Of a DNA stretch of 19,108 nucleotides, positions 927 to 15,111 are shown one piece after another. Within the stretch, counting starts at the first letter, position 1. Each line of letters begins with the position of its first letter. The position numbers and the translations under genes are program-made. The notes beneath the pieces were generated by a model. It was not told the DNA's origin. It saw nothing but the letters and a program-made list of their open reading frames with translations, and searched no databases. This stretch comes from an uncultured Lachnospiraceae bacterium (GTDB taxonomy: Bacteria; Bacillota; Clostridia; Lachnospirales; Lachnospiraceae), in the NCBI GenBank assembly GCA_934370915.1, contig CAKRNI010000025.1, forward strand, positions 1-19,108. The letters run 5' to 3'.

Positions 927-957
927 CTTCTTGTTTTCATTTCATGAAAACAAGAAG
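927..957. repeat. Perfect 14-bp inverted repeat, 3-base loop
   Basis: Arms CTTCTTGTTTTCAT (927-940) and its exact complement (944-957) surround the loop TTC. Neither strand has a T-tract directly after the stem, so this is not a standard intrinsic terminator. It could be an operator, an mRNA-stabilising hairpin in the tpiA leader, or part of a dispersed repeat. Confidence 0.8.
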
Positions 958-976
958 CCGGGGGCGTCCCCCCTAT

Positions 977-1041
977 GCAAGTTTACACTAAAAAAAGCTT
1001 ATGCAAGCGAGCTTGCAACACTTTTTTCAGCGCAAACTTGC
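977..1041 (-). terminator. Nested hairpin, probable pgk terminator
   Basis: Three concentric pairs of arms are visible. GCAAGTTT (977-984) pairs with AAACTTGC (1034-1041). AAAAAAG (991-997) pairs with CTTTTTT (1021-1027). TGCAAGC (1002-1008) pairs with GCTTGCA (1011-1017) around a GA loop. Read on the minus strand, the core stem is followed by TAAGC and then seven Ts, the form of an intrinsic terminator, 20 bases after the pgk stop codon. The A/T arms make it look bidirectional, although no plus-strand gene needs it. Confidence 0.7.
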
Positions 1042-1060
1042 GCACGGCTGACTGGTTTCA

Positions 1061-2284
1061 TTATTTGTCGTCAGCTGCAGCAACGCCCGGAAGCTCTTTT
1101 CCTTCCAGGAACTCTAAGGATGCGCCGCCGCCTGTGGAGATGTGGCTCATCTTGTCGCCGAAGCCGAGCTGGTTGACTGCTGCCGCGGAATCACCGCCGC
1201 CGATGATCGTTGTAGCGTCTGTCTCAGCAAGTGCTTTTGCAACCGCGATGGTACCTGCAGCGAGAGTCGGGTTCTCGAATACGCCCATCGGTCCGTTCCA
1301 TACAACCGTCTTCGCGCTCTTTACAGCTTCTGTGTAGAGCTTGCAGGTCTCCGGTCCGATATCAACGCCCTCTTTGTCTGCCGGGATCGCGTCTACGGAA
1401 ACGTACTCAACCTCAACCGGTGCGTCGATCGGGTTCGGGAATTCAGCAACAACGGTTGTATCAACCGGAAGGAGAAGCTTCTTTCCAAGCTTTTCTGCCT
1501 TCTCCATCATCTCCTTGCAGTAGTCGATCTTTGTATCGTCAACTAAGGACTTACCGATCTCCTTGCCCTGTGCCTTTAAGAAGGTGTAGGCCATGCCGCC
1601 GCCGATAATAAGGGTATCGCATTTCTCAAGCAGGTTGGAGATTACGTTTAACTTATCAGCAACCTTTGCGCCGCCGAGGATTGCTACGAACGGACGAACC
1701 GGGTTCTCAACCGCGTTTCCAAGGAACGCGATCTCTTTCTCCATCAGGTATCCGACAACGTTGGAGCCGCCCTTTGCGGAGATGAATTTTGTAACACCTG
1801 CTACGGAAGCGTGTGCTCTGTGGGAGGAACCGAACGCGTCGCATACATAATCGTCTGCAAGATCCGCGAGCTCTTTGCTGAACTCCTCGCCGTTCTTTGT
1901 CTCCTCAGCACCGCGGAAACGTGTATTCTGAAGAAGGACTACGTCCCCCTCTTTCATCGCTTCCACTGCCTTTGTTGCAGCTTCGCCGGTTACGTTGTAA
2001 TCAGAAACGAATACAACTTCCTTTCCAAGCTTTGCGGAAAGGCTCTTTGCAACCGGTGCAAGGGATTCTCCCTCGTTCGGGCCGTTTTTAACTTTTCCGA
2101 GGTGGGAGCAGAGAATTACCTTGCCGCCATCGTTGATCAGCTTCTGGATCGTCGGGAGAGCCGCGTTGATACGTGTCTCGTCTGTGATCTCGCCGTTCTT
2201 AAGCGGTACGTTGAAATCACAGCGGACTAAAACTCTTTTACCTTTTACGTTGATATCATCAACTGTTTTCTTATTTAAAGACAT
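1061..2284 (-). CDS. pgk: Phosphoglycerate kinase
   Basis: A 407-residue cytosolic enzyme transferring phosphate from 1,3-bisphosphoglycerate to ADP, the first ATP-forming step of glycolysis. The start is ATG at 2284 (protein [10 protein letters not shown]), preceded by a strong AAGGAGG at 2294-2300. A longer open frame reaching back to 2413 adds 43 residues unlike any PGK and is rejected. Family signatures seen are [12 protein letters not shown] near the N-terminus, the substrate-binding LCSHLGK stretch, [14 protein letters not shown] in mid-protein, and GGGDSAAA plus [16 protein letters not shown] in the C-terminal nucleotide-binding domain. It lies between gap and tpiA, separated from each by about 310 bases of structured intergenic sequence. 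No clear promoter was found upstream, so its expression may rely on read-through of the gap terminator. Confidence 0.98.
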
Positions 2285-2392
2285 GTCGGAATTCCTCCTT
2301 GATATTTTCTGACAAACGTCTGCCTGTCTTCCGACCCACGGCAGCCGCCGGAGTCTATCGCGGGAAGCGGGCTTTCGCGCGCTTTCCACGTG

Positions 2393-2417
2393 AAAAAGAA
2401 TGTGCCTTGGCACATTC
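2393..2417 (-). terminator. Terminator-like hairpin in the pgk leader
   Basis: GAATGTGCC (2398-2406) and GGCACATTC (2409-2417) form a perfect 9-bp stem with a 2-base loop. On the minus strand it is followed by TTTTT, at 2397-2393. It lies 109 bases before the pgk start and after the gap terminator, so it could reduce read-through into pgk, or be part of a dispersed repeat. Confidence 0.5.
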
Positions 2418-2423
2418 TCGCGC

Positions 2424-2463
2424 CTCGCGCGGTCGCTTGCGACAATCTACGTCTTCGCGCGAG
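2424..2463. repeat. Two-tier GC-rich inverted repeat
   Basis: Outer arms CTCGCGCG (2424-2431) and CGCGCGAG (2456-2463) enclose GTCGC (2432-2436) and GCGAC (2439-2443) with a 2-base loop. Function is unknown. It sits in the pgk leader between two other hairpins. Confidence 0.6.
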
Positions 2464-2490
2464 TGCGCATCTTTGGCACGTCAGTGCCTT

Positions 2491-2533
2491 TTTATGTAAC
2501 AGGGAATTCCTCGGAATTTCCTGTTACATAAAA
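2491..2533. repeat. Long palindrome, about 20-bp arms with 2-base loop
   Basis: TTTATGTAACAGG plus GAATTCC (2491-2510) pairs with 2513-2533 with a single G/T mismatch and the loop TC. The flanking T and A runs can extend the stem. It directly adjoins the gap terminator. A perfect near-zero-loop palindrome of this size may be a cruciform, a strong RNA hairpin or the tip of a mobile-repeat remnant. Confidence 0.75.
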
Positions 2534-2564
2534 AAGGGATCCGGTCCTCAACAGACCGGACCCC
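2530..2564 (-). terminator. Intrinsic terminator of gap
   Basis: On the minus strand, CCGGTC (stem right arm GACCGG at 2554-2559, left arm CCGGTC at 2541-2546) extends through GGG/CCC at the base and is followed by six Ts (2535-2530). It lies 38 bases past the gap stop codon. It separates gap from pgk transcriptionally, at least in part. Confidence 0.85.
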
Positions 2565-2601
2565 TCAGTGAGTCTATTTTGTCACAATTTCTGTGGACCG
2601 A

Positions 2602-3621
2602 TTAAGCATTTAACAGTTTTCCGAAGTGCTTAATTGTACGAACCATCTGGCTTGTGTAGGAGTTCTCGTTGTCGTACCAGGATACAACCTGAACCTCAGA
2701 TGTGTTCTCGTCGATCGGGAGAACCATTGTCTGTGTTGCATCGAAGAGAGAACCGTATCTCATACCAACGATATCGCTGGAAACGATCTCATCTGTGTTG
2801 TAGCCGAAGGACTCGTTGGAAGCTGCCTTCATTGCTGCGTTGATGGATTCCTTTGTCGGCTGGCCCTTAACAACAGCTGTTAAGATTGTTGTGGAACCTG
2901 TCGGTGTAGGAACACGCTGAGCGGAACCGATGAGCTTGCCGTTTAATTCCGGAATTACAAGGCCGATTGCCTTTGCAGCGCCTGTGCTGTTCGGAACGAT
3001 GTTGATCGCTGCTGCACGGCTTCTTCTCTTGTCGCCCTTTCTCTGCGGTCCGTCAAGTGTCATCTGGTCGCCTGTGTAAGCGTGGATTGTGCACATGATA
3101 CCGGACTGGATCGGGTAAGAATCGTTTAATGCCTTTGCCATCGGAGCGAGGCAGTTTGTTGTACAGGAAGCAGCGGAGATGATGTGGTCATCTTTGCTTA
3201 ATGTCTCGTGGTTTACGTTGTAAACGATTGTCGGAAGATCGTTTCCTGCCGGAGCGGAAATGATAACGTGCTTAGCGCCTGCATCGATATGAGCCTGTGC
3301 TTTTGCTTTGGATGTGTAGAAGCCTGTGCACTCAAGAACAACGTCTACACCGATCTCGCCCCACGGAAGCTCTGCTGCGTTTGCTTTCGCGTAGATCTTG
3401 ATCTCTTTGCCATCAACAGTGATGGAATCCTCACCGTAGGAAACTGTATCCGCAAGAGCGTATCTGCCCTGTGTGGAATCATATTTTAAAAGGTGTGCGA
3501 GCATCTCCGGAGAGGTTAAGTCGTTGATCGCAACGATCTCGAATCCCTCTGCGCCAAACATCTGTCTGAATGCAAGACGGCCAATACGGCCAAAACCATT
3601 AATCGCAACTTTAACTGCCAT
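2602..3621 (-). CDS. gap: Glyceraldehyde-3-phosphate dehydrogenase, type I
   Basis: A 339-residue glycolytic dehydrogenase that oxidises and phosphorylates glyceraldehyde 3-phosphate with NAD. Residues 1-12 hold the Rossmann motif INGFGRIGR, and Asp34 in AINDLTS is the expected NAD-ribose contact. The catalytic Cys153 lies in SAASCTTNC and His180 in [10 protein letters not shown]. The C-terminal SWYDNENSY signature is present. Length and start are normal, and AGGAGG (in the CCTCCT stretch at about 3630-3637) precedes the ATG. It has its own promoter at 3757-3785 and its own terminator at 2530-2564. No CggR-type regulator gene lies upstream; the neighbour there is the divergent sensor kinase. 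The set of residues fits the NAD-dependent catabolic enzyme rather than a GapB type. Confidence 0.98.
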
Positions 3622-3756
3622 TTTTCTTTTCCTCCTAGAAAATGATGTGTGGTCGTTTCATAACCATTCAGCATGTCCGCACGTTTCACGGACCGTAAAG
3701 GATACTCTGAAACGCCAAACAGTTATGATTGTTAAATATTAATCAACCTTGGTTTT

Positions 3757-3785
3757 ATTGTACCTAATTCTGCCAGAAATAGCAA
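3757..3785 (-). promoter_or_regulatory. Sigma-A promoter of gap
   Basis: On the minus strand TTGCTA (3785-3780) and TACAAT (3762-3757) are separated by exactly 17 bases. The predicted start at about 3750 gives a gap leader of roughly 130 bases. That leader contains TGATT/AATCA arms around an AT core (about 3725-3745) and GTCCG/CGGAC arms (about 3676-3694), either of which could be a regulatory site. Confidence 0.75.
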
Positions 3786-3879
3786 GTCCTTTTTACAAAC
3801 TTTTCCCAATATGAATCGAAGATTTTCTCCTTTTTTCGGCAAAAGCCGGGAATCCCTCTTTTTTTCGTCATCTTTCCTC

Positions 3880-3908
3880 TTGAAACTCCCTCTTTTTTTT
3901 TTTATACT
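3880..3908 (+). promoter_or_regulatory. Sigma-A promoter of the sensor kinase operon
   Basis: TTGAAA (3880-3885) and TATACT (3903-3908) are 17 bases apart, with a run of about 12 Ts in the spacer. The predicted start at about 3915 leaves a 5' leader of about 245 bases before the kinase ATG at 4161. The promoter is back to back with the gap promoter. Confidence 0.65.
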
Positions 3909-3914
3909 AAGGCA

Positions 3915-4120
3915 TAATATGTTGAGGTCAAAAAGTCTTTTGACCTCTCTGATACCGGATTGCTCCGCACTACGTGCTCCCGCAATCCTCAAAACATTCG
4001 TAATTCGCTCATTTTTCTTTGAAAAATGGCTACTTACTCATGTTTTGGCGGGTCCCAAGGTCCAAAATCCTCCTGCAAGCAAGCTTGCGTCGGACTTCAG
4101 ACCTTTTGACCCTAATATCA
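3915..4120 (+). other. Highly structured leader or dispersed palindromic element
   Basis: Almost the whole stretch can fold on itself. P1 is GAGGTCAAAA (3924-3933) with TTTTGACCTC (3938-3947), loop AGTC. P2 is GGATTGC (3957-3963) with GCAATCC (3982-3988), enclosing GCAC/GTGC. P3 is CAAAACAT (3990-3997) with ATGTTTTG (4040-4047), capped by CATTTTTC/GAAAAATG (4010-4028). P4 is GCAAGC/GCTTGC (4075-4088) inside AAGGTC (4057-4062)/GACCTT (4100-4105). TTTTGACC recurs at 4104-4111 and could replace the P1 right arm to close the whole element. TAATAT occurs at both edges (3915-3920 and 4113-4118), which could be a target-site duplication. It matches no riboswitch class I know. The alternatives are a cis-regulatory RNA of the kinase operon or a MITE-like intergenic repeat. 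Confidence 0.6.
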
Positions 4121-4160
4121 AAATATTAACACCTGTATTCCACCATGGAGGACACGTTTC

Positions 4161-5843
4161 ATGATGCAGAAATTTCGAAAACTATCTCTGGAGAGCCAGC
4201 TGTTTTTCAGCTTTATGGCAGTGTCCGTCTGCCTGCTGCTCCTCTCCTTAAGTATAACCCTTTCTTCGACAATTACACGTCAGCGTCAGGAGATCGATAA
4301 AAATATCAGCGCTCTCGCCGCCTATGTTGCCTCCATGGACAGCGTTGTCTCCATGCTGGAAAACGGTTATCCGGACGGATCCGCCAATGAAGCTCTGGAT
4401 TCCCTGTCTGAAAATTTTCCCGATCTCAATGTCATGGCCATTTATAATACGACCGGGCTGCGGTTCTACCACACAAACCGGAAGGAGACGGGAGAAACCT
4501 TCGTCGGCGGCGAGGAGGAGGCAATCTTAAAGGGCAGCCAGCCCTATATCACCATCGGTTACGGTACAAACGGTTCCCAGCGGCGGGCCTTCCATTCGAT
4601 CCGGAACAGCGACGGAGCAATCATCGGTTTCGTTATAGCGTCGGTCTTCAACACCTATATCTCCGAGCAGGTCCACGAAGTCTTTCCTACCTATTTACTG
4701 GCAGCGATGATCATGCTGCTCGTCAGCATCTTTCTGTCCCGCGGGCTCGTCTCTCTTCTCCGGGACTCCCTGATGGGACATCACCCGACGGAGCTGCTCG
4801 ACCTGTACCTGCGTCAGGATACCGTTTTGAATGCACTGGAGGAAGGTCTTGTCGCCACGGATTCCACCGGCTCTGTGGTTTACGCAAATCAGGCGGCAGA
4901 GCGGCTCTTTCATGTCCTGCCTGAAAAACCGGAGGATCCGCCGTCTGTCTCCCAAGACGATGGGACTTCTGGACAGGAACGGACCGAACCTCTTATGGAA
5001 GGACGCACTTTCAGGGATTTCTTCCCGGAATCCCAGGCAGACCGGGTCCTCGCGTCCGGCACACCTTCCTACCACCGTGCCTGCACCTGTGAGAACCGAA
5101 GGCTTCTGGTCAGTGAGATTCCGGCAGACACCCAGACGGAGCATCCGGTGATCCTCACGATCATCAATGACCAGACGGAGATGGAGACGGTCATGGACGA
5201 GCTCACCGGAGCAAAGGCGATGCTTGACACACTGCGCGCCTTCAACCACGAATTTTTAAATAAGCTCCACGTGATCCTCGGCTACCTCCAGACCGGACAG
5301 ACTGACGAGGCCATCAACTTCATTATCAACAGCAACCTTGTCTCCAGCCAGTCGATCCGCCAGACAGCGGACTGCCTGCGCGTGTCAAAGATCTGTGCCC
5401 TTGTGATCGGAAAAATGATGCATGCCGCGGAGCTCGGCATCCTGCTCACCGTCTCCCCGGACAGCCGCTGTCTGGAAAAGGATCTTCTTCTTCCGGTCGA
5501 AAACTATATCACGATCGTCGGAAATCTTCTCGAAAATGCCATCGAGGAGCTTTCCGCCGGCAGTCCTGAGATCCGGGAGATCACACTCGGGATCTACTGT
5601 GACCCGGACTGCAACATCATCACCTGTGAGGACACCGGGCGCGGGATCCGTCCGGATCTGATCGACAGGATCTATGAAAAGGGTGTCTCATCCAAGGGCA
5701 CAAACCGCGGAACCGGACTTTTCCTGATCAAACAGCTTGTAGACAATGGGAACGGCGAGATCTCCATCGAGACAGAACCGGGAGAGGGAACCTGCTTTAC
5801 CATCACATTTACGGAAAGGAAGCATACACCATGTACCATGTAA
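4161..5843 (+). CDS. CitA/DcuS-family sensor histidine kinase
   Basis: A 560-residue membrane kinase, with GGAGG just before the ATG. A first membrane segment at about 14-36 is followed by an extracytoplasmic sensor domain (about 38-174), a second membrane segment (about 175-200), a cytoplasmic PAS domain starting near 217 (DTVLNALEEGLVATD), then the kinase core. The phospho-acceptor is His363 in FNHEFLNKLH, the pattern typical of the DcuS/CitA group. The N-box is GNLLENAIEEL with Asn459, followed by EDTGRGI (491-496) and GTNRGTGLFL (513-522). Family members sense di- and tricarboxylates or related acids outside the cell. The ligand cannot be read from the sequence. The last 13 bases overlap the response regulator gene, so the pair is translationally coupled. 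The downstream GltS-like transporters are the likely targets. Confidence 0.92.
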   Translation: MMQKFRKLSLESQLFFSFMAVSVCLLLLSLSITLSSTITRQRQEIDKNISALAAYVASMDSVVSMLENGYPDGSANEALDSLSENFPDLNVMAIYNTTGLRFYHTNRKETGETFVGGEEEAILKGSQPYITIGYGTNGSQRRAFHSIRNSDGAIIGFVIASVFNTYISEQVHEVFPTYLLAAMIMLLVSIFLSRGLVSLLRDSLMGHHPTELLDLYLRQDTVLNALEEGLVATDSTGSVVYANQAAERLFHVLPEKPEDPPSVSQDDGTSGQERTEPLMEGRTFRDFFPESQADRVLASGTPSYHRACTCENRRLLVSEIPADTQTEHPVILTIINDQTEMETVMDELTGAKAMLDTLRAFNHEFLNKLHVILGYLQTGQTDEAINFIINSNLVSSQSIRQTADCLRVSKICALVIGKMMHAAELGILLTVSPDSRCLEKDLLLPVENYITIVGNLLENAIEELSAGSPEIREITLGIYCDPDCNIITCEDTGRGIRPDLIDRIYEKGVSSKGTNRGTGLFLIKQLVDNGNGEISIETEPGEGTCFTITFTERKHTPCTM

Positions 5844-6517
5844 TCATCATTGAGGACGATCCGATGGTCGCCTCCATCAATAAACAGTATGTCGAGGTCA
5901 CCCCGGAGTTCCGGGTGGATCGGATCTTTAAAAACGGGGCGGAGGCACTCCCCTACCTGAAGACAAATCCCGCTGACCTGATCATTCTCGATTACTATAC
6001 TCCGGTCATGAACGGCGGTGAGTTTCTCGATGCCCTCCACAGTGCCGGTCTCACACCGTCCGTCATTATGGTCACATCAGCAAACGATACGGATATCGTC
6101 CGCTCCCTGTTGAACCGCGGGATCACCGACTATCTCGTAAAACCCTTCGAATATACGCGTTTTAAGACAGCTCTTGACCGTTTTACCGAGACAAAGAAGT
6201 ATCTGGAGCACAGCCACGGGGGACTCGGCCAGCACGATATCGACCGTCTCTTTTCCGTGAATGACCAGAGGGCGGATGCAAAGCCGTCACTCGCAAAGGG
6301 ATTGAACGAGACAACCCTCGCCATGATCCGGGAATATCTTCAGAACAACCGGAATGGCTTCTTTACCAGCGAACAGATCGCCGAGCAGATCCATCTCTCC
6401 CGCATCACGATCCGCAGATACATGAACTATATGGTAGACACCGGCGAGATCATCAGCACGATCGATTACAAGACCGGCGGCCGCCCCTCGATCAAATATG
6501 GATTCGGACAAAAGTGA
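5831..6517 (+). CDS. DcuR/CitB-family response regulator
   Basis: A 228-residue cytoplasmic regulator. The receiver domain (1-120) has the acidic pocket E8-D9-D10, phospho-acceptor Asp54 (LILDYYTPVMNG), Thr82 and Lys104 (VKPF). The C-terminal part (about 155-225) is a winged-helix type DNA-binding domain (TSEQIAEQIHLSRITIRRYM) ending in GRPSIKYGF, the layout of the CitB/DcuR group and not of OmpR or NarL types. It begins inside the kinase gene. Its likely targets are the two symporter promoters downstream, both of which carry GTTACTTA near the -35. No clear terminator follows, only a short CTGCC/GGCAG repeat at about 6520-6536, so some read-through into the first transporter is possible. Confidence 0.92.
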   Translation: MYHVIIIEDDPMVASINKQYVEVTPEFRVDRIFKNGAEALPYLKTNPADLIILDYYTPVMNGGEFLDALHSAGLTPSVIMVTSANDTDIVRSLLNRGITDYLVKPFEYTRFKTALDRFTETKKYLEHSHGGLGQHDIDRLFSVNDQRADAKPSLAKGLNETTLAMIREYLQNNRNGFFTSEQIAEQIHLSRITIRRYMNYMVDTGEIISTIDYKTGGRPSIKYGFGQK

Positions 6518-6754
6518 TCTGCCCTCTGATGGCAGTTACGATATTTACAAAACCTGTTACTTACTTACTTAAATTGACACCATGCACAAAATCTTTTATT
6601 CTTTTTATAAAGTTTTTACACATTTTTCATCAATGTAAACGGGGTATAAACAGATGGAGCGCTTTTCTTTTCATCTGTGAGCTGTTTCCGGATTCCCGGG
6701 ACAGGAAAAGATGAGCGGAATGTGTAAGGAAAAAAAAGGATAGGAGGATATTTT
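6518..6754 (+). other. Promoter region of the first GltS-like gene
   Basis: This holds GTTAC at 6535-6539 and again at 6556-6560, 21 bases apart (two helical turns). The second copy runs on as three TTAC-type repeats to 6572. A sigma-A promoter follows at 6574-6602. The leader of about 145 bases contains a CTGT-CCGG / CCGG-ACAG hairpin at about 6679-6703 and an AGGAGG ribosome binding site just before the ATG at 6755. Confidence 0.6.
6556..6602 (+). promoter_or_regulatory. Promoter with candidate response-regulator site
   Basis: TTGACA (6574-6579) and TATTCT (6597-6602) are 17 bases apart. Immediately upstream lies GTTACTTACTTACTTAA (6556-6572), in the position an activator touching the -35 region would occupy. 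A related GTTACTTAA lies at the second transporter promoter. Binding by the adjacent regulator is an inference. Confidence 0.6.
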
Positions 6755-8005
6755 ATGGAGAATATCATCAGCTATTTCGGCACCTACACACCAGCTGCCG
6801 ACGGCGCAATCGCAAGTTTCAAATTTGAGTATTTATGTACTCTCGGCTTTGCAGCAATCGTAATCTTCCTCGGACGCGCGATCGTCGCACGTTCCGCGGC
6901 ATTAAGAAAATACGCGATTCCTGCTCCGGTTGTTTCCGGTATCATCTTTTCAATTCTCATTTCCGCGATCAAGATGACCGGCACAGTCAGTATCAGTTTT
7001 GACGCAAAGGTCATGAAAGACCTCTGTCAGAACCTCTTCTTCCTCTGCGTAGGCTTCGGCTTCAGCGCAAAGATGTTAAGACATGCAGGCGGAAAGCTCT
7101 GCGTCATGATCGCATTTGCTGCCTGCCTCCTGATCACCTGTCAGGACATCCTTGGTGTTGCGATCGCTCACCTGATCAACTTAAATCCGCTCCTCGCTCT
7201 CCAGTGTTCTTCCGCAGCGATGTCCGGTGGTGTTGGTACTGCATCTGCCTTTGGTCCGATCTTCGAGGGCTGGGGTGCACAGGATGCTACAACGATCGGT
7301 GTTGCGGCAGGTACTCTTGGTAACGTTATGGGCTCCCTCATCGGTGGTCCGATTGCAGCTTTCCTGATTGCAAAGCACGGTTTAAAGGCTGATCCGAACG
7401 ATAAGCCGGAAGCAAAGGCAACCGGCAAGGCACCGGAGCTTAACAACACAAAGATGATCATGATGTTCGCAATGTGCTTACTCCTCGCAGCTCTCGGTAT
7501 GCCGATCTACTGCTTACTCGACAACATCCCGATGATCGAGATGCCGAAATTCATCGGCTGCCTCTTCGCAGGTGCCATCGCAAGAAACGTCATGGAAGCA
7601 GCAAACATCAAGTTCTATGTTCCGGAGGTTGATGCTATCGAGCATATGTTCCTGGAGCTTTACCTTGCACTTGTTCTTATGACAACGGACTTCACGAAGC
7701 TTGCCCCGGTTGCAGGCCAGATGGGTATCATCCTCGTAGCACAGGCGATCCTCATAGCTCTGTTCGGTATCTTCGTATCCTTCAACCTCTTTGGCCATGA
7801 CTACGGCGCAGCCGTTATGACCGCCGGCAACATCGGTTGGGGCTGCGGTTCCGGTCCGAACGCAGTAGCGAACGAAAAGGCAGTTATGGATCAGTATGGA
7901 TGGCACAACATTGCATGGGTTCTCTACCCGTCCTTCGCTGTTATCATCGATGATATTTACAACCCGATCTTCCTTTCCATCTTTGGTGGCTTATTCAAAG
8001 GCTGA
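6755..8005 (+). CDS. GltS-like (ESS family) sodium:glutamate symporter protein, copy 1
   Basis: A 416-residue, very hydrophobic inner-membrane protein with about ten to eleven predicted membrane segments. LRKYAIPAPVVSG near residue 51, the glycine-rich CSSAAMSGGVGTASAFGPIF in mid-protein, GSLIGGPIAAFLIAKHGL, and a second-half repeat with AGNIGWGCGSGPNAVANEKAV match the pattern of the ESS (GltS) glutamate:Na+ symporters. The substrate is not proven. It follows the two-component genes, has its own promoter and a strong AGGAGG, and ends in an intrinsic terminator. An 89% identical copy follows. Substitutions between the copies cluster at about residues 60-85 and 130-145. Confidence 0.8.
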   Translation: MENIISYFGTYTPAADGAIASFKFEYLCTLGFAAIVIFLGRAIVARSAALRKYAIPAPVVSGIIFSILISAIKMTGTVSISFDAKVMKDLCQNLFFLCVGFGFSAKMLRHAGGKLCVMIAFAACLLITCQDILGVAIAHLINLNPLLALQCSSAAMSGGVGTASAFGPIFEGWGAQDATTIGVAAGTLGNVMGSLIGGPIAAFLIAKHGLKADPNDKPEAKATGKAPELNNTKMIMMFAMCLLLAALGMPIYCLLDNIPMIEMPKFIGCLFAGAIARNVMEAANIKFYVPEVDAIEHMFLELYLALVLMTTDFTKLAPVAGQMGIILVAQAILIALFGIFVSFNLFGHDYGAAVMTAGNIGWGCGSGPNAVANEKAVMDQYGWHNIAWVLYPSFAVIIDDIYNPIFLSIFGGLFKG

Positions 8006-8058
8006 TCGTAAGTCAGATCCCATATACAGTTTTTGATCTTGATACATACCCCCCTTAT

Positions 8059-8101
8059 ATCCGCCCGGAGAGATTCCCACTCTTCCGGGCGGATTTTTTT
8101 G
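8059..8101 (+). terminator. Intrinsic terminator after symporter copy 1
   Basis: ATCCGCCCGGA (8059-8069) pairs with TCCGGGCGGAT (8084-8094), an 11-bp GC-rich stem followed by seven to eight Ts. Confidence 0.92.
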
Positions 8102-8436
8102 TGCGCGAAGATACAGGCTGCCGCAGGCGGCTGCGCGAGACGTCCAGGACATGTCAAGTCTTTTCCCGCTAATTTTCCGTACAGCTTTATATTCTCTCTG
8201 TATCCGTTTTTGTATATTTTTTACTGTATTTTTGTTACTTAAGTTACAATTGTTGGTTAATACTTATTAAAATTGCATTTTGTTTGAAAATATTTTATCC
8301 TTTTTTCATAAAAATTTTACCTTCCCAAACAACTCCGGCAGGCTCCTCTGTGGGGAAATAAAACAGTTCCATTCGCTGTTTCGTTTTCAGGAAGCTTTCG
8401 GAGCACACCTACAAAAAAAGGATTGGAGGAACTCTT
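8102..8436 (+). other. Promoter region and leader of the second GltS-like gene
   Basis: No gene is visible. After the terminator there is a GCCGC/GCGGC mini-hairpin (about 8119-8130), then AT-rich sequence with the candidate operator and promoter at 8232-8273, then a leader of about 155 bases with GGAGG just before the ATG at 8437. Confidence 0.6.
8232..8273 (+). promoter_or_regulatory. Candidate activator-dependent promoter of symporter copy 2
   Basis: TTGTTACTTAAGTTACAA (8232-8249) is an 18-base imperfect palindrome centred on CTTAAG, with only one mismatched pair, and contains GTTAC twice, 9 bases apart. It overlaps a weak -35 (TTACAA, 8244-8249). A good -10, TAAAAT (8268-8273), lies 18 bases on. 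A weak -35 covered by a palindrome shared with the first transporter promoter suggests activation by the upstream regulator. Confidence 0.5.
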
Positions 8437-9687
8437 ATGGAAAGTATCATCAGTTATTTCGGCACCTACAAACCGGCAGCCGACGGAGCAGTCGCCTCTT
8501 TCAAATTTGAGTACCTGTGTACTCTCGGTTTCGCGGCCATCGTAATCTTCCTCGGCCGGGCCATCGTTGCCCGTTCCGCGGCTCTCAGAAAGTACGCGAT
8601 CCCGGCGCCTGTTATTTCCGGTCTGATCTTCTCTATCATCGTATCCTGCATCAAAGGCGTAGGAATCGTCGGAATCTCCTTCGACGCGACGATCATGAAG
8701 GATCTCTGCCAGAACTTATTCTTCCTCTGCGTGGGCTTCGGCTTCAGCGCGAAGATGTTAAAGCACGCAGGCGGAAAGCTCTGTGTCCTCATCGCATTTG
8801 CTGCATGTCTTCTGATCACCTGTCAGGACCTCTTAGGATACGCCCTGAGCCAGCTCATCGGAATGCACCCGCTCTTAGCGCTCCAGTGTTCTTCCGCAGC
8901 GATGTCCGGCGGTGTCGGCACCGCGTCCGCGTTCGGTCCGATCTTTGAGGAATGGGGCGCACCGGATGCCACCGTTGTTGGTGTCGCAGCCGGTACCATG
9001 GGAAATATCATGGGCTCCCTGATCGGCGGTCCGGTTGCAGCCTTCCTGATCGCAAAGCACGGCTTAAAGTCTGATCCGAACGACAAACCGGAAGCACATG
9101 CAACCGGCAAGGTTCCGGAGCTTAACAACACAAAAATGATCATGATGTTTGCGATGTGTCTTCTTCTCGCAGCACTCGGAATGCCGATCTACTGCCTGCT
9201 TGATAACATCCCGATGATCGAGATGCCGAAATTCATCGGCTGCCTCTTCGCCGGTGCCATCGCGAGAAACGTCATGGAAGCAACCGGAATCAAGTTCTAT
9301 GTACCGGAGGTTGACGCTATTGAACACATGTTCTTAGAGCTCTACCTTGCCCTCGTACTTATGACCACTGACTTCACGAAGCTTGCTCCTCTTGCAGGAC
9401 AGATGGGCATCATCCTCGTTGCACAGGGCATCTTCATGGCACTCTTTGGAATCTTTGTATCCTTCAACCTCTTCGGCCGCGATTACGGCGCAGCTGTCAT
9501 GACAGCCGGAAACATCGGCTGGGGCTGCGGTTCCGGTTCCAACGCCGTCGCAAACGAGAAAGCGATCATGGACCAGTACGGCTGGCACACCATCGCATGG
9601 GTTTTATATCCGTCCTTTGCCGTTATCATCGACGATATCTACAACCCGATCTTCCTCTCCATCTTCGGAAGCCTGTTCCGGAGTTGA
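8437..9687 (+). CDS. GltS-like (ESS family) sodium:glutamate symporter protein, copy 2
   Basis: A 416-residue membrane protein colinear with copy 1 with no gaps. By my count about 47 positions differ, roughly 89% identity. The same family signatures are present (LRKYAIPAPVISG, AMSGGVGTASAFGPIF, GNIGWGCGSGSNAVANEKAI). The stretch of about residues 228-283 is identical in the two proteins, although the DNA differs at many synonymous sites there, which points to purifying selection rather than very recent conversion. Differences concentrate around residues 63-83 and 130-145, within membrane segments, and could alter affinity or substrate. It has its own promoter region and ends in a strong terminator. 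Confidence 0.8.
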   Translation: MESIISYFGTYKPAADGAVASFKFEYLCTLGFAAIVIFLGRAIVARSAALRKYAIPAPVISGLIFSIIVSCIKGVGIVGISFDATIMKDLCQNLFFLCVGFGFSAKMLKHAGGKLCVLIAFAACLLITCQDLLGYALSQLIGMHPLLALQCSSAAMSGGVGTASAFGPIFEEWGAPDATVVGVAAGTMGNIMGSLIGGPVAAFLIAKHGLKSDPNDKPEAHATGKVPELNNTKMIMMFAMCLLLAALGMPIYCLLDNIPMIEMPKFIGCLFAGAIARNVMEATGIKFYVPEVDAIEHMFLELYLALVLMTTDFTKLAPLAGQMGIILVAQGIFMALFGIFVSFNLFGRDYGAAVMTAGNIGWGCGSGSNAVANEKAIMDQYGWHTIAWVLYPSFAVIIDDIYNPIFLSIFGSLFRS

Positions 9688-9735
9688 CAGAACCTTACAA
9701 CGTTTAGTGGTTTCTCATTTGTATAACCCTCTTTT

Positions 9736-9769
9736 CCGGTCGGAGATCCCCCCTCTCCGACCGGTTTTT
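9736..9769 (+). terminator. Intrinsic terminator after symporter copy 2
   Basis: CCGGTCGGAGA (9736-9746) pairs with TCTCCGACCGG (9754-9764), a perfect 11-bp stem with a C-rich loop followed by TTTTTG. Confidence 0.93.
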
Positions 9770-9789
9770 GTTTGTTTTTCTAAAATACA

Positions 9790-9819
9790 TTGTATCTGCC
9801 GCGGATTTTATGTTATACT
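9790..9819 (+). promoter_or_regulatory. Possible promoter of the TAXI lipoprotein gene
   Basis: TATACT (9814-9819) is a good -10. The best -35 is TTGTAT (9790-9795) at 18 bases. Just downstream, AAGTTACAA (9831-9839) repeats exactly the nine bases found at 8241-8249 in the second symporter promoter, hinting at co-regulation. Confidence 0.5.
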
Positions 9820-9898
9820 CTAAAGATGTAAAGTTACAAAAGCTGTCCGGAGCTTTTTCCGGTTTTACAGCCTGACACACAAGGAATGGGATATCTTC

Positions 9899-10912
9899 AT
9901 GCATAAATTTTCACACATAATTTCTTTGTTCCTCGTCTGTACCGGTCTCGCGCTTGGCGGATGCGGAAAAGCTTCCGTGCCCCCGCAGGGCCAGACAGGG
10001 GCAGCATCGGATTCATTAAAAATTCTGACGATCGGAACTGCCGACAGCGGCGGGACCATGTACCCGGTCGGAAAAGCGATCTCCGGGGTCGTTGAGGAGG
10101 CCGACTCCACCCTCAAACTGAACGTCAGCGCTTCCACGGGCTCCTCCGGAAATGTCCGCTCCCTCCAACAGGGAAGCATCGATCTCGGACTTGTCAGCGG
10201 TGACGTGGCCTTCGCCGCAGTAAACGGAAGCGGTGAATTCAAGGACGCTCCGTTTAAAGGACTCAAGGTTATCGCAGCCCTCTATCCGAGCCTCTCGAAC
10301 TGGATGGCCCGGGATGATTCCGGAATTTTTTATGTGCATGATCTGAAGGGGAATAAACTTGGGGTCGGTCCTCATGATTCCACCACGGAGCTCGCCGCAA
10401 AGGTTTCCCTGAGTGTTCTCGGTGTCACGGAGCAGAATTCCACCCTCGTTAACTGTGGCCTCGGATCGGGCGCTGAGGAGGTAAAAAACAGGACTCTCGA
10501 CGCGATCCACGGGTTCACCGGTGTACCGATCTCCGGACTCACAAAGCTGGCGGACGAGGTTCCATGCCATCTTTTAAAATACACGGGTTCTGAACTCCGC
10601 TCCATCATCCGCTCCAATCCATTCTATTATATGGAGGAGATTCCCGCCGGTACCTACAACGGTCAGGACGAGGATGTTGCAACCTTTGGGATCAAATGTC
10701 TCCTCTGCGTCAGCGAGAACATGGGCGACGATCTCGTCTATGAGATCACCTCGATCCTCTACGAGAACCGTGACCGCTTAAAGGATCTCCATCCCGCCCT
10801 CTCCTATGCCTCACAGACGGGATTCTTGTACGAGGATCTTCCGATCGAGCTTCATCCGGGGGCTGAGCGGTATTATGCGGAGCAGGGGCTTCTGCAGGAA
10901 CACAGCAGATAA
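9899..10912 (+). CDS. TAXI-family solute-binding lipoprotein (orphan)
   Basis: A 337-residue exported binding protein. Residues 1-22 form a lipoprotein signal (hydrophobic stretch ending LGGC, Cys22), so it should be tethered outside the membrane. The mature part matches the TAXI subfamily of TRAP-transporter binding proteins: IGTADSGGTMYPVGKAIS near the N-terminus, STGSSGNVRSLQQGSIDLGLV, DLKGNKLGVGP, and HPGAERYYAEQGLL at the end. TAXI proteins normally pair with a large fused TRAP permease; none is present here. A TAXI protein from Thermus is known to bind glutamate. It may feed the GltS-like carriers, present ligand to the sensor kinase, or serve a distant permease. These three options are inference. 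It has its own promoter and terminator. Confidence 0.88.
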   Translation: MHKFSHIISLFLVCTGLALGGCGKASVPPQGQTGAASDSLKILTIGTADSGGTMYPVGKAISGVVEEADSTLKLNVSASTGSSGNVRSLQQGSIDLGLVSGDVAFAAVNGSGEFKDAPFKGLKVIAALYPSLSNWMARDDSGIFYVHDLKGNKLGVGPHDSTTELAAKVSLSVLGVTEQNSTLVNCGLGSGAEEVKNRTLDAIHGFTGVPISGLTKLADEVPCHLLKYTGSELRSIIRSNPFYYMEEIPAGTYNGQDEDVATFGIKCLLCVSENMGDDLVYEITSILYENRDRLKDLHPALSYASQTGFLYEDLPIELHPGAERYYAEQGLLQEHSR

Positions 10913-10941
10913 TTCTTTTCAGTATAAAATATAAACAGTCG

Positions 10942-10987
10942 AATGCGCACCATCCGGGGACAAGATCCCGGTTGATGCGCATTTTTT
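10942..10987 (+). terminator. Intrinsic terminator of the TAXI gene
   Basis: AATGCGCA (10942-10949) pairs with TGCGCATT (10976-10983). An inner CCGGG/CCCGG stem extends it. Six Ts follow (10982-10987). Confidence 0.88.
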
Positions 10988-11028
10988 GCCCATGGCAGAT
11001 CTGTAACTTAAAAAATCATCTTTACCCC

Positions 11029-11057
11029 TTGTCATATAGTTTTTAATACTATATAAT
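11029..11057 (+). promoter_or_regulatory. Sigma-A promoter of the DUF1836 gene
   Basis: TTGTCA (11029-11034) and a consensus TATAAT (11052-11057) are exactly 17 bases apart. The start at about 11064 lies after the ATG at 11060, which supports 11081 as the real start codon. Confidence 0.82.
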
Positions 11058-11080
11058 AGATGGATGAAAGGAGTTTCACC

Positions 11081-11701
11081 ATGAGAACGAATGAAGAACG
11101 ACTGAATGAGCTGCTCGCTCACCTGGACAGCCTCGACCATATCCATGTCGATGAGATCCCGCAGATCGACCTCTATATGGATCAGGTGACGACCTTTATG
11201 GAGAAGCACCTCGGTGAGTTAAAGCGCTATCCGGAAGACAAGGTTCTGACAAAAACCATGATCAACAACTACGCGAAAAACAACCTGCTTCCATCCCCGG
11301 TACGGAAAAAATATAATCAGGAGCATATCCTGCTTCTGGTGTTTATCTATTATTTCAAAAATCTGCTGAGCTTCACGGATATTGAGACGGTTCTTTCCTA
11401 TATCACAGAAAACCATTTCGGCACAGATGAGTCCTCCCTGTCGGAGATCTACACGAAGGTCTTTTCTCTGGAGCATGAACAGATGGACCGGCTGAAGGAC
11501 GATGTGAAGGAGAAATTCGAGAAAGCGAAGGAGACCTTCCCCACTGCCGCGGAGGGATCGGAGGATCCTGAGAATGCGGAAGCGCTGCAGCTCTTCGCGT
11601 TTATCTGCGAACTGGCTTTCGACGTGTTCTTAAAGAAGCAGATGATCGAGCGACTGGCCGATGAGCTCCGGGCTGAAAATCCGCCGAAGAAAAAGAAATA
11701 A
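11081..11701 (+). CDS. DUF1836 family protein
   Basis: A 206-residue soluble protein. The start at 11081 (MRTNEERLNEL) is chosen because AAAGGAG stands about 8 bases before it and because the promoter predicts a transcript beginning after the in-frame ATG at 11060. The stretch at about residues 60-105, TMINNYAKNNLLPSPVRKKYNQEH followed by a hydrophobic helix, is the DUF1836 signature and resembles a MerR-like helix-turn-helix, so a DNA-binding role is possible. The molecular function is unknown. The C-terminal end is lysine-rich. It is a single-gene unit that converges with the yerC-type gene on a shared terminator. Confidence 0.8.
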   Translation: MRTNEERLNELLAHLDSLDHIHVDEIPQIDLYMDQVTTFMEKHLGELKRYPEDKVLTKTMINNYAKNNLLPSPVRKKYNQEHILLLVFIYYFKNLLSFTDIETVLSYITENHFGTDESSLSEIYTKVFSLEHEQMDRLKDDVKEKFEKAKETFPTAAEGSEDPENAEALQLFAFICELAFDVFLKKQMIERLADELRAENPPKKKK

Positions 11702-11704
11702 TTC

Positions 11705-11763
11705 AAAAAGACCTTCCTGCAAAAGCAATCCCCATTTTGCTTCTGTCAGAAGGTCTTTCTTGT
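11705..11763. terminator. Bidirectional terminator between convergent genes
   Basis: AAAGACCTTC (about 11707-11716) pairs with GAAGGTCTTT (11749-11758), with an inner GCAAAA/TTTTGC stem. T-rich sequence follows on the plus strand and an A run (11705-11709) supplies the T-tract on the minus strand. It can serve both the DUF1836 gene and the yerC-type gene. Confidence 0.8.
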
Positions 11764-11785
11764 TTTCATATTAAAATACTTTCTC

Positions 11786-12106
11786 TTATTTCTCAGCGCC
11801 GTCCCCATCATCGAGCTTCTCGAATCCAAGGCGCTTGAATACCATATCGTATCCGTCACTTCCATAATTTAAAGACCGGTTTACACGGCTGATCGTCGCG
11901 GTGGAAGCTCCCGTGCTCTCCGCGATATCGAGATATGTCCGCTTTTCCCTCAGCATCTTTGCAACCTCATAACGCTGAGATAAGGACAATAACTCATTCA
12001 CCGTGCAGACGTCCTCAAAAAAGGCATAGCACTCTTCCGGTGTTTTTAATGTCAGAACCGCCTCAAAAAGGTGATCAACTGCATCTGTTTTGATTTTCTT
12101 ATTCAT
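11786..12106 (-). CDS. yerC: YerC/YecD-type TrpR-like transcriptional regulator
   Basis: A 106-residue protein. The middle part, TPEECYAFFEDVCTVNEL followed by LSQRYEVAKMLREKRTYLDIAESTGASTATISRVNRSL, is the TrpR-fold helix-turn-helix of the YerC/YecD family. The members are dimeric DNA-binding proteins, and their target is not established from this sequence. Complete, with normal length. Upstream, an inverted repeat GCAGCAAA/TTTGCTGC lies in its leader and may be its own operator. The symbol is used in the family sense. Confidence 0.85.
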   Translation of the reverse strand: MNKKIKTDAVDHLFEAVLTLKTPEECYAFFEDVCTVNELLSLSQRYEVAKMLREKRTYLDIAESTGASTATISRVNRSLNYGSDGYDMVFKRLGFEKLDDGDGAEK

Positions 12107-12136
12107 GTTTACTGTTACCCCTTCTGCTTCATATTT

Positions 12137-12165
12137 GCAGCAAATTCAGAACAATTTTTTGCTGC
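12137..12165 (-). promoter_or_regulatory. Inverted repeat upstream of the yerC-type gene
   Basis: GCAGCAAA (12137-12144) and TTTGCTGC (12158-12165) are perfect 8-base arms 13 bases apart, about 30-60 bases before the start codon. A dimeric TrpR-fold regulator could bind such a site, giving autoregulation. On the plus strand it is followed by ATTTTTT and could instead act as a terminator, but no plus-strand gene ends nearby. Confidence 0.45.
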
Positions 12166-12242
12166 ATTTTTTATGGATCATTTCGTTCAACGCACTAATC
12201 ACAGTTTAACACGTTAGATTCAAAAAGTCCAGTGTTTCTGCA

Positions 12243-12297
12243 TAAAAAAGCAAAAAGAGTTATGGCTGCCATATCCTGTTGGAATATAAGCAGCCAT
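12243..12297 (-). terminator. Terminator of the PTS operon
   Basis: ATGGCTGC (12262-12269) pairs with GCAGCCAT (12290-12297), with partial inner pairing. On the minus strand two T-runs follow (in CTCTTTTTGCTTTTTTATG). It lies directly after the HAD phosphatase stop codon. Confidence 0.65.
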
Positions 12298-12300
12298 TTT

Positions 12301-13134
12301 CTATGCCAACATAAATTTCTCCACAACCAGCCCGACACCGTCATCATTGTTGGACGCCGTGATATAGTCCGCTGCGTTCCGCACCGGAAGGACCGCGTTC
12401 TCCATTGCAACGCCAAGTCCCGCGTACCTGATCATCGTGAGGTCATTGTAGCCGTCCCCGCAGGCGATCATCTGCTCTCTTGTGAGCCCAAGGACCTCCA
12501 GCAGGCGTTCCAGACTCTGGGCCTTATCGATTCCCTTCGGCAGTACTTCAAGAAAGAACGGATCCGAGCGGTAGACGCTGAAATTCTTTCCCATCGCTGC
12601 CTTTACCTTCGGTTCCACCATCGCAAGGTAGTCTCCGTCCTCCATCATAAGAAACTTCGGGACTTCAAAATTTACGTACTCCTTCATGTTCTCCGGTTTC
12701 AAAAGCTCCATCCCGTTGATCCGGCTCTCCAGCTTTGCGTAGGGAGATTCCGGATTTGAGGAGATGATCCTGCTGCCCTCATATGTGGTGATATCGACCT
12801 GATGTTCCTCCGCAAGTCCGATAATCTTCTTGTTGGCAGAAACCGGCAGGGATCTCGCAAACACCGTCTCCCCGGTCTTGCAGTTGATGATCCGCCCACC
12901 GTTGAAGGAGAGGATATAGCCGCTGTACCCGTCCAAACACAGCTCCTTTGCAAGCGGCATCACGCCCTGGGTCGGCCGCCCCGACGCGAGAACCACCTTT
13001 TTTCCACGCTCCTGTGCCTTCATAAGCGCCGCCTTTGTTCTTGGCGTGATCACCTTGTCCCGGTTCGTCAGCGTTCCGTCCAGATCCAGAACGATGATCT
13101 CGTAAGAACCTGCCATGTTTTTTTCTGTCTGCAT
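12301..13134 (-). CDS. Cof-type HAD-superfamily sugar-phosphate phosphatase
   Basis: A 277-residue cytosolic phosphatase of the HAD IIB (Cof) subfamily. The start is ATG at 13134 (MQTEKNMAGSYE), with GGAGGAG at 13141-13147. A TTG further up would overlap that ribosome binding site. Motif I is VLDLDGTLTNRD (nucleophile and acid/base Asp), motif II is VLASGRP, and motif IV is ACGDGYNDLTMIRYAGLGVAMENA; the large cap between motifs II and III is typical. Family members remove phosphate from sugar phosphates, pyridoxal phosphate or flavin precursors. Position as last gene of the PTS operon, 35 bases after ptsI, suggests relief of sugar-phosphate overload, which is inference. Confidence 0.9.
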   Translation of the reverse strand: MQTEKNMAGSYEIIVLDLDGTLTNRDKVITPRTKAALMKAQERGKKVVLASGRPTQGVMPLAKELCLDGYSGYILSFNGGRIINCKTGETVFARSLPVSANKKIIGLAEEHQVDITTYEGSRIISSNPESPYAKLESRINGMELLKPENMKEYVNFEVPKFLMMEDGDYLAMVEPKVKAAMGKNFSVYRSDPFFLEVLPKGIDKAQSLERLLEVLGLTREQMIACGDGYNDLTMIRYAGLGVAMENAVLPVRNAADYITASNNDDGVGLVVEKFMLA

Positions 13135-13169
13135 ATATGACTCCTCCAAGCGCAGGACGCGCTGTTTTT

Positions 13170-14798
13170 TTACTTTGTTAGATCCGTCTCCCGGATCTTC
13201 TTTCTCACCTTCAGAAGAAAGGACGGGGACACTGAAAGCTCGTCGATCCCCATTTTCAGGAATTCTTCCGTAAGCCCGGTCTCCGCTCCCAGCTCGCCGC
13301 AGATTCCCACCGTACAGCCGTGTCTGTGACCGCTCTCCGCCACAAACCGGATCAGCCTCATTACTGCCGGATGTCTCGGATCATAGAATTGATCCAGCTT
13401 CTCGTTCTGTCTGTCGATGGCCAGCGTATACTGGACGAGGTCGTTGGTTCCGATGCTGAAGAAATCCACCTCTTTTGCAAGGTCATCACTGATGATGGCC
13501 GCCGCCGGGGTCTCGATCATGATACCGATCGACACATCACCGAAGGGAACTCCCTGTCCGCTCAGCTCCTCCCGGACAGATGCCGCGATCTCCTTCGCCT
13601 TCCGGACTTCCCATAGCGACGCGATCATCGGAAACATGATCGAGATCTTTCCGAACGCGCTGGCCCGGTAGATCGCCCGAAGCTGGGTCTTGAAGATCTC
13701 CGGTCTTGTGAGGCAGATCCGGATCGCGCGGTAGCCCATCGCCGGATTTTCTTCCTTCTTTAATTTAAAATACTCTGCCTGCTTGTCGGCACCGATATCC
13801 AGAGTGCGGATAATGACCTCTTTTCCCGCCATCATCTCCGCCACCTGACGGTACGCGGCAAACTGCTCTTCCTCTGTCGGATAGGTCTTCTTCTCCAGAT
13901 ACAAAAACTCGCTCCGGAACAGGCCGATGCCCGCCGCGTTGCTCTTTAAGACCTCCGCCACATCCGACACATCTCCGATATTGGCGTAGAGCTTCACCTT
14001 TGTTCCGTCCAGAGTGATGTCCTCTTTGTCCTTCAATTCCTGCAGAAGGCGTTCCTGCTCCTCCTCCGCCCTCTTCTTGTTCTCCAGAACAGCCAGCGTT
14101 TTCTCATCCGGATCCACATAAAGTGTCCCTGTCTCGCCGTCGATGACCGCCATCTTTCCGTCCCAGGACTCCCTTATCGCCACAGAGACAAGCGCCGGGA
14201 TATTCATGCTTCGCGCCAGGATCGCCGTGTGGGAGTTCGGAGACCCCTGTTCCGTGATAAATCCCAGCAGCATGTCCTTTTCCAGCTGTACCGTCTCACT
14301 GGGGGCCAGATCCTCCGCCATAAGGATCACCGGGCGGGTCAGAAAGCCGGACTCCACCGCGTTGCCGGAAAGGATCTTTATAAGCCGGTCCGTGATATCT
14401 TTTACATCCGCTGCCCGGGCGCGGAAATACTCATCATCCATATCGGCAAACAGGCGGTAAAAATTATCTCCCGTCACCGCCGCTGCGTACTCTGCGTTCG
14501 TCTTCTGGTTTCTTATGATGTTCAGCACCGAATCCCGGTAATCCGCGTCCTCAAGCATCATCATGTGGACCTCAAACACCGCCGCTCCGGTCTCACCGAC
14601 CTCTTCACACGCTTTCCGGTGAAGTGTTCTGAGCTCCTCTTTTGCGCACGCCACAGCCGCCTCGTACCGGCTGACCTCCTCCCCGGTATTCTCCACCGTG
14701 CGGCGCTTCACCTGACTTTCCGTCTTCCTGTGGTAAAGGATCGGCCCGATCGCTACCTTATTTAATATTGATTTTCCTTTGATGATCTCCATGCTCAT
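13170..14798 (-). CDS. ptsI: PTS enzyme I (PEP-protein phosphotransferase)
   Basis: A 542-residue cytosolic enzyme that takes phosphate from PEP and gives it to HPr. The phospho-His is His190 in GSPNSHTAILARSMNIPALV. The C-terminal PEP-binding barrel shows GIGLFRSEFLY, the MGYRAIR stretch, IMIETPAA, FFSIGTNDLVQYTLAIDR and the active-site Cys in GICGELGAE. Length is slightly below the usual 570. The ATG at 14798 begins 9 bases after the HPr stop, and its ribosome binding site (GTGAGG) overlaps that stop, so the two are translationally coupled. GPNS is a mild variant of the common GGRTSH signature. Confidence 0.95.
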   Translation of the reverse strand: MSMEIIKGKSILNKVAIGPILYHRKTESQVKRRTVENTGEEVSRYEAAVACAKEELRTLHRKACEEVGETGAAVFEVHMMMLEDADYRDSVLNIIRNQKTNAEYAAAVTGDNFYRLFADMDDEYFRARAADVKDITDRLIKILSGNAVESGFLTRPVILMAEDLAPSETVQLEKDMLLGFITEQGSPNSHTAILARSMNIPALVSVAIRESWDGKMAVIDGETGTLYVDPDEKTLAVLENKKRAEEEQERLLQELKDKEDITLDGTKVKLYANIGDVSDVAEVLKSNAAGIGLFRSEFLYLEKKTYPTEEEQFAAYRQVAEMMAGKEVIIRTLDIGADKQAEYFKLKKEENPAMGYRAIRICLTRPEIFKTQLRAIYRASAFGKISIMFPMIASLWEVRKAKEIAASVREELSGQGVPFGDVSIGIMIETPAAAIISDDLAKEVDFFSIGTNDLVQYTLAIDRQNEKLDQFYDPRHPAVMRLIRFVAESGHRHGCTVGICGELGAETGLTEEFLKMGIDELSVSPSFLLKVRKKIRETDLTK

Positions 14799-14807
14799 AT
14801 ATCTGCC

Positions 14808-15065: not shown

Positions 15066-15111
15066 AATCAACCCACTTCCTGTCTTTCTTTTTTCAGTTC
15101 ATTCGTTCCTG

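Follow-up and report, generated by a model that had tools for sequence, protein, structure and literature searches.

A conserved unit of two-component system, ESS carrier and TAXI lipoprotein in gut Clostridia: a candidate sensing and uptake system for an organic anion

What does a TAXI binding lipoprotein do when no TRAP permease is encoded beside it? The question is raised by a contig of an uncultured Lachnospiraceae bacterium (GenBank assembly GCA_934370915.1, contig CAKRNI010000025.1), of which positions 1 to 19,108, the whole stretch analysed, are here called the window. An earlier note on this DNA, made from the sequence without database searches, had described a carboxylate-type sensor pair, two GltS-like carriers of the ESS family and a TAXI lipoprotein lying together on the plus strand, and had suggested glutamate as a shared ligand. 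A search for open reading frames and profiles in the window bears out the grouping: the named genes are all on the plus strand, near where that note had put them, and the whole module lies within 7 kb. The note was also right in seeing no TRAP permease, since no fused DctQM permease was found in the window or near the TAXI genes of related modules.

The TAXI protein scores 264 bits against TIGR02122 (curated cut-off 84.35) and carries a lipobox LGGC with Cys22, read off the sequence. Its predicted model (pLDDT 89) has the TAXI fold, the best solved matches being 1us4 and 9ibo, with TM scores (query) of 0.79–0.80 and about 30% identity to the VcGluP and TtGluBP structures. The best whole-length NCBIfam model for the kinase is the DcuS/MalK family (276.5 bits, not reaching the cut-off of 520), with sCache_3_2 and PAS matches below cut-off, and the best full-length model for the regulator is DcuR (151.6 bits, under the cut-off of 262). 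Both carriers fall under the cut-off of the GltS equivalog TIGR00210 (234.1 and 230.3 bits against 310.75); as members of PF03616 they were therefore properly labelled "GltS-like", and are not demonstrably glutamate carriers.

The unit is real, conserved and narrowly spread. Scanning a species-genome collection with carrier 1 brought up 21 loci (L numbers, in genomes given G numbers), whose genes were identified by blastp of simple open reading frames against the window proteins. The order kinase–regulator–carrier–TAXI is complete in 16 of these loci, a linkage therefore far beyond chance, and a TAXI gene adjoining an ESS carrier gene, as in TAXI-GltS systems, is conserved. By record title the loci come from several families (Lachnospiraceae, Oscillospiraceae, Oscillibacter, Pseudoflavonifractor and others); one of the 16, L021, has its kinase cut by the contig end. 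L008 begins at the carrier, with the TAXI gene next, and in L012 and L014 the carrier is present and the other module genes are not beside it. L017 lies on a contig that begins shortly before the carrier and has no TAXI gene after it. L016 presents the kinase, the regulator, a second ESS type (40% identical) and the carrier before the contig ends 1 kb on; the TAXI gene of this genome (G016) is kept on a different contig (L027) from the kinase and carriers. No locus but the window has two carriers of the same subfamily. The called TAXI frame of L003 (L003:12052-12939) has no leader, and upstream of it, in a different frame, is a signal-like stretch, so that this gene may carry an interruption or have been misread.

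A TAXI-led search of 250 genomes of G009's family returned six at E 1e-80, four at module level (G009, G020, G442 and G503; 473–517 bits) and two lower (332–347 bits), and both new module genomes (2/2) contain the whole kinase–regulator–carrier–TAXI unit. Module-level TAXI proteins occur in at least one of 295 genomes in an order sample and at least two of 79 relatives of G005, and the carrier subfamily in at least one of 398 in a phylum sample; these three counts are lower bounds, since the initial scan scores few candidates in each genome, and each includes the centre genome itself. The earlier note had been ready to give up its proposal if the linkage were not conserved in other genomes, or if a TRAP permease elsewhere clearly owned this binding protein; the linkage is conserved, and no permease clearly owning a module TAXI was found.

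Glutamate fares less well. In VcGluP only the loss of Y45 or Q93 severely cuts glutamate affinity (213- and 990-fold), and E125 also holds the amino group of glutamate (PMC11574862). In an alignment of the window protein and 18 relatives with 1us4, 8s4j and 9oz4, all 19 module TAXIs have Met at VcGluP position 45, Ser at 93 and Ser at 125. Among the best 120 of 485 database relatives, ranked by similarity to the window protein, 119 read Met-Ser-Ser and one Met-Gly-Ser. TRAP-linked TAXIs of the same genomes keep Tyr, Gln and Glu in 8 of 11 cases, the other three varying at 93 and 125. All three residues are likewise kept in the GltS-linked TAXIs L034 and L026 (the latter a 785-aa fusion) and, by reading the sequence, L069; orphan TAXIs linked to galK have mixed residues at the site. 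The conserved Y and Q of the TAXI-GltS type are thus missing from the module proteins. An Asp at VcGluP position 40 (Asp49 in the window TAXI) is invariant and could hold an amino group, so our claim is limited to this not being the known glutamate site and does not extend to all amino acids. A role for Lys266 in holding a carboxylate was weighed and rejected, as Lys or Arg is found there in other TAXI groups too.

The carriers depart from GltS as well. All 25 that were read (two in the window, those of the 21 loci, L063 and L064) have the motifs GGVG and GWGCGSG.NAVANEKA, where E. coli GltS, L034, L026 and L069 have GGHG or GGHA and GFG.GATP.A.ANMQA; we take these to be the two re-entrant loop regions. 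The module carriers form a separate ESS subfamily, and the TAXI site and carrier motifs change together. With the TAXI site changed and the carriers in a subfamily of their own, glutamate as shared ligand is unsupported; some carboxylate that is not L-glutamate is the probable ligand. The two window carriers differ at a position which is split among the relatives (GSGPNA in carrier 1, GSGSNA in carrier 2). Their genes are 81% identical; as 168 of the 236 differences are in the third position of a codon, both proteins seem to be under constraint. A recent tandem duplication was considered and rejected, because the two are not sisters in the tree, though a single clade is only borderline rejected (approximately unbiased (AU) test, p 0.051). 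No solved structure was matched by the carrier sequence at E 0.001, and a structure model (pLDDT 53) was poor and went unused.

We placed the TAXI proteins in an unrooted tree of 45 sequences (L035 and L045 left out, L067 not added; L039 and L040 have long branches and unsure placement). The 21 module rows are one clade (100/98), which groups with the TRAP-linked L065 and L066 and with the galK-linked group (99/99). The three GltS-linked TAXIs sit apart, among glutamate-type TRAP TAXIs, and a tree forced to unite all ESS-linked TAXIs is 108 log units worse and is rejected (AU p 2e-5). The simplest reading of this tree is that the TAXI-ESS pairing would have been gained twice; since the tree is unrooted and holds just three GltS-linked rows, other readings are possible.

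Some of these relatives deserve description. The 785-aa TAXI-ESS fusion, L026:2706-5063, has a glutamate-type site and comes from the same genome as L014 (Pseudoflavonifractor sp. 60), where a lone module-type carrier is present too. The TAXIs of L065 (8092-9093) and L066 (7909-8949) show by eye a module-like site, with Met at 45 and Ser at 125; in L066 a DctM permease follows, and the two are possible TRAP-linked kin of the module TAXIs. Orphan TAXIs L028, L029, L030 and L031, near the module TAXIs in the tree, adjoin a galK-like gene, with no permease seen next to them, and in L028 a DUF1177 gene is also nearby.

By kinase profile, the module kinase is present in 18 of the 21 genomes and the module TAXI in the same 18. 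Neither is present in G012, G014 and G017, all of which retain the carrier; G012 has no TAXI, G014 has the fusion and a TRAP-linked TAXI, and G017 a TRAP-linked TAXI. If the two were independent such a match would have odds of 1 in 1330, kinship ignored. In the 250-genome sample the same four genomes carry kinase and TAXI at module level. The next-best kinases (360–455 bits), at the nine loci looked at, are about 30% identical and have other neighbours. Where DcuS has R107, H110, F120 and R147, residues with a role in ligand binding, the window kinase likewise has R, H, F and R; relatives are less strict (R107 in 15/15, H110 in 13/15, F120 in 9/15, R147 in 11/15).

The control signals of the carrier and TAXI genes also differ. 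Eighteen aligned gaps upstream of carriers share a box of approximately TTACAAAA, followed by TACTTACnTAAATTGAC, which runs into the -35 element. The box set left out the carrier gaps of L008, L016 and L017, and L064; L011 was left out of the alignment, and the box model recovered its carrier gap nonetheless. A genome search with this model, which did not include G001, G008 and G017 and scored up to 150 candidates per genome, found the carrier promoter in all 16 module genomes searched (14 in training; G011 and G016 not) and no match at E ≤ 1 in G012 or G014. Within the window its hits up to E 5 are the two carrier promoters alone, both of them training rows. The carrier box was not found upstream of TAXI genes, either by the model search of the window or by consensus scoring of TAXI gaps: scored with a 39-base consensus, carrier gaps range from 18 to 37 and TAXI gaps from 16 to 21, with shuffled carrier gaps at a mean of 18.9 and a maximum of 25. 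Of 18 TAXI gaps, 15 have a hairpin and T run and 16 a TG-extended -10 in their best promoter, and in 13 at most five of 100 base shuffles score equally. From these signals the TAXI protein would be made independently of the regulator. Two further box sites reach at least 25 bits. One (L102; 25 bits) stands before an ESS carrier of the second type seen in L016; in G016 itself the second carrier is preceded by a weak site (16 bits). A copy of 30 bits precedes a SulP/STAS permease gene in G020 (L101 near 5623-5673). Some SulP proteins carry C4-dicarboxylates, and this site may be a hint at the module ligand.

The coordinates of the module are collected in Table 1. Each of carrier 1, carrier 2 and the TAXI gene has a hairpin with a T run behind it, so the block comprises several transcription units; the earlier note's description of it as closed by terminators holds for the terminators and fails for a single closed operon. 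For the promoter proposed at 3880 there is no more than a match to the consensus, of which the region holds ten where shuffles lead one to expect 8.2. Opposite the stretch from this site to the kinase start, on the minus strand, lies a Clostridiales-1 RNA (RF01699, 143 bits; window 3950-4120), which would be antisense to the kinase leader; none was found in the seven relatives scanned, and for that reason we do not count it in the module. A DUF1836 gene (window 11029-11701) adjoins the TAXI gene directly after the module, and its promoter-like match (11/12) is the highest in the region scanned. Further out are core genes, by their sequences presumably tpi, pgk and gap to one side of the module and phosphotransferase system genes to the other.

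Table 1. Features of the module and their positions in the window
Feature	Position	Strand	Evidence
Sensor kinase, DcuS/CitA-type	4161..5843	+	HATPase_c and SPOB_a over cut-off
Response regulator, DcuR-like	5831..6517	+	Response_reg; gene overlaps kinase gene
Box and promoter, conserved, before carrier 1	6536..6605	+	Carrier-gap alignment; 51.4 bits with box model
ESS carrier 1	6755..8005	+	PF03616, 268.8 bits; motifs GGVG, GSGPNAVANEKAV
Terminator 3' of carrier 1	8059..8094	+	Hairpin and T run, z -5.86
Box and promoter, diverged copy, before carrier 2	8235..8304	+	Alignment; 37.1 bits with box model
ESS carrier 2	8437..9687	+	PF03616, 259.5 bits; motifs GGVG, GSGSNAVANEKAI
Terminator 3' of carrier 2	9736..9764	+	Hairpin and T run, z -6.15
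TAXI promoter-like site	9790..9819	+	TTGTAT-18-TATACT with TG; weak alone, 28/100 shuffles equal
TAXI lipoprotein	9899..10912	+	TIGR02122; Met54, Ser100, Ser131 replace VcGluP Y45, Q93, E125
Terminator 3' of TAXI	10941..10984	+	Hairpin and T run, z -4.37

Gene content, order, conservation, the changed site, the carrier subfamily, the transcription-unit signals and the co-occurrence of kinase and TAXI are observed in the sequences. The reading we lean towards, at somewhat under even chances, is that of an inherited unit which senses and takes up one organic anion, with the TAXI protein as co-receptor and box-regulated ESS carriers. The TAXI lipoprotein would be made from its own promoter before induction, capture the ligand at the cell surface and present it, as a needed co-receptor, to the DcuS-type kinase; the phosphorylated regulator would then bind the TTAC box beside the carrier promoters and raise the ESS carriers, to which the TAXI protein would probably also hand the ligand. 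Such a system would resemble DctB-DctS-DctA of Bacillus subtilis and BctC-BctDE, built of TAXI and ESS parts. The co-receptor role fits a TAXI gene which is without the carrier box and tied to the kinase, and delivery to the carrier fits the joint change of TAXI and carrier; both roles can be true. Presentation of ligand to the kinase, which the earlier note had raised as one possibility, becomes a stronger candidate, since inheritance ties the TAXI gene to the kinase and not just to the carrier.

Alternatively the TAXI protein might be a transport partner only, of the TAXI-GltS type with a changed substrate, while the kinase senses through its own sCache domain and regulates the carrier. We rate this a serious contender, if on balance doubtful. 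TAXI-GltS pairs and fusions are published (PMC12344293), a fusion and two further pairs turned up here (L026, L034, L069), the TAXI site and carrier motifs change together, and the kinase keeps its carboxylate residues; yet the TAXI gene is absent wherever the kinase is absent though the carrier is kept (3/3), and lacks the carriers' box. That same independence, a TAXI gene forming by its signals its own transcription unit, would suit a chance neighbour, the two-component system and carriers being one unit and the TAXI protein an orphan with a separate function, much as the other orphan group stands beside galK and a DUF1177 gene without an ESS carrier. An order complete in 16 of 21 loci, which span several families, the joint absence of TAXI and kinase, and the retention of an unlinked TAXI gene in G016 make this improbable.

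There is very little to be said for a TRAP permease elsewhere in the genome as the partner. DctM proteins do occur in 21 of 21 genomes, and the nearest outside TAXI relatives include the TRAP-linked L066, with a 655-aa DctM protein, and L065, with a similar 667-aa frame (unprofiled). Fused TAXI-type permeases, however, exceed the cut-off in only 15 of the 21 genomes; five of the 18 module genomes have none over it (G003, G008, G010, G013 and G016, the last with two adjoining pieces below cut-off), and 35 of the 37 that pass have, by hand count, another TAXI match within 1 kb. Among the matches listed, the DctM closest to a module TAXI is about 20 kb away (G009). TAXI-TRAPs are moreover reported always with fused permeases (PMC5812351). 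Oscillibacter frames of about 670 aa following the TAXI gene have a length suggestive of TRAP permeases and were rejected; by eye they read as 5'-nucleotidases, and no fused permease is there.

Several points weigh against the co-receptor reading. The 18 to 3 split depends on a small number of losses and is uncorrected for kinship; G017 (1.5 Mb) and G012 (2.0 Mb), being small, are perhaps incomplete, and in kinase-less genomes the carrier may have been acquired alone. With ligand residues of its own retained, the kinase may do without a co-receptor. Three of the 19 carrier gaps score at the shuffle mean for the 39-base consensus and others under the shuffle maximum, so that the consensus alone is weak evidence; regulator binding to the box is a prediction, the box itself having been noticed in these very sequences, and the search for it was capped at 150 candidates per genome. 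In the window itself the TAXI promoter is a weak one (Table 1).

Should the co-receptor reading be right, receptor, sensor and carrier would be inherited as one unit in gut Clostridia. The module may further represent a separately evolved second class of binding-protein-dependent ESS carrier, for a substrate other than glutamate, with a TAXI receptor shared by carrier and DcuS-type kinase, a proposal we advance tentatively and would not bet on. It points to more than one origin of TAXI-ESS pairing and to a pairing independent of glutamate, and so would support a real coupling of binding proteins to ESS carriers. With its parts within reach of one another, a candidate control box and natural genomes that have the carrier alone, it offers a compact test system for whether one binding protein can serve carrier and kinase at once.

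How much of this is new? The transport half is already published in principle. Jaques et al. (2025) reported that the TAXI protein BP0403, encoded beside gltS, keeps the Y and Q residues and binds L-glutamate; they also described TAXI genes of conventional size next to gltS in other places, together with 14 TAXI-GltS fusions, most of them from Lachnospiraceae, and proposed, with binding data, TAXI delivery to GltS in August 2025, stating that functional coupling still awaits experiments (PMC12344293). The idea that a TAXI protein serves an ESS carrier, put forward in the earlier note as novel, thus gains from the conserved pairing and loses its novelty. Other TAXI systems handle 2-oxoglutarate, 2-hydroxyglutarate or orthophthalate (PMC12344293). 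In the open-licence literature we found no description of a kinase-linked TAXI-ESS unit, nor of the sensor half, separate origin or changed site of the module.

The module resembles BP0402/BP0403 in having a lipoprotein TAXI beside an ESS carrier, without a TRAP permease, and in the proposed delivery of ligand to an elevator-type carrier. It differs in its kinase, since that paper mentions none ("two-component" occurs 0 times in its main text; PMC12344293), in having Met and Ser for Y and Q, and in its TAXI protein, which is of conventional size, neither overlaps nor is fused with the carrier, and belongs to another clade than the three GltS-linked TAXIs. The TAXI-TRAP proteins VcGluP and TtGluBP share the fold; VcGluP has Y45, Q93 and E125 against Met, Ser and Ser, and the module is without an adjacent TRAP permease. 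E. coli GltS is a PF03616 member with 31% identity to the module carrier, and has GGHG and GATPTAIANMQA against GGVG and GSGPNAVANEKA in the module carriers, which lie under the equivalog cut-off.

On the sensing side the system of Bacillus subtilis has the carrier DctA and a binding protein of the DctP type. There DctB is reported necessary for sensing (PMC6978683). BctC, which belongs to a tripartite tricarboxylate transporter and is encoded beside a two-component system, is reportedly needed for transport as well as signalling (PMC5812351). BctC-BctDE is thus like the module in its binding protein next to a two-component system, and unlike it in pairing a TctC-family protein with a TctAB permease, where the module has TAXI with ESS. 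With DctB-DctS-DctA the module shares a DcuS-family kinase, a regulator, a secondary carrier and an extracytoplasmic binding protein in one system, all encoded together; with TAXI and ESS in place of a DctP-type protein and DctA it is not a member, and by analogy it may work like DctB-DctS-DctA without being one.

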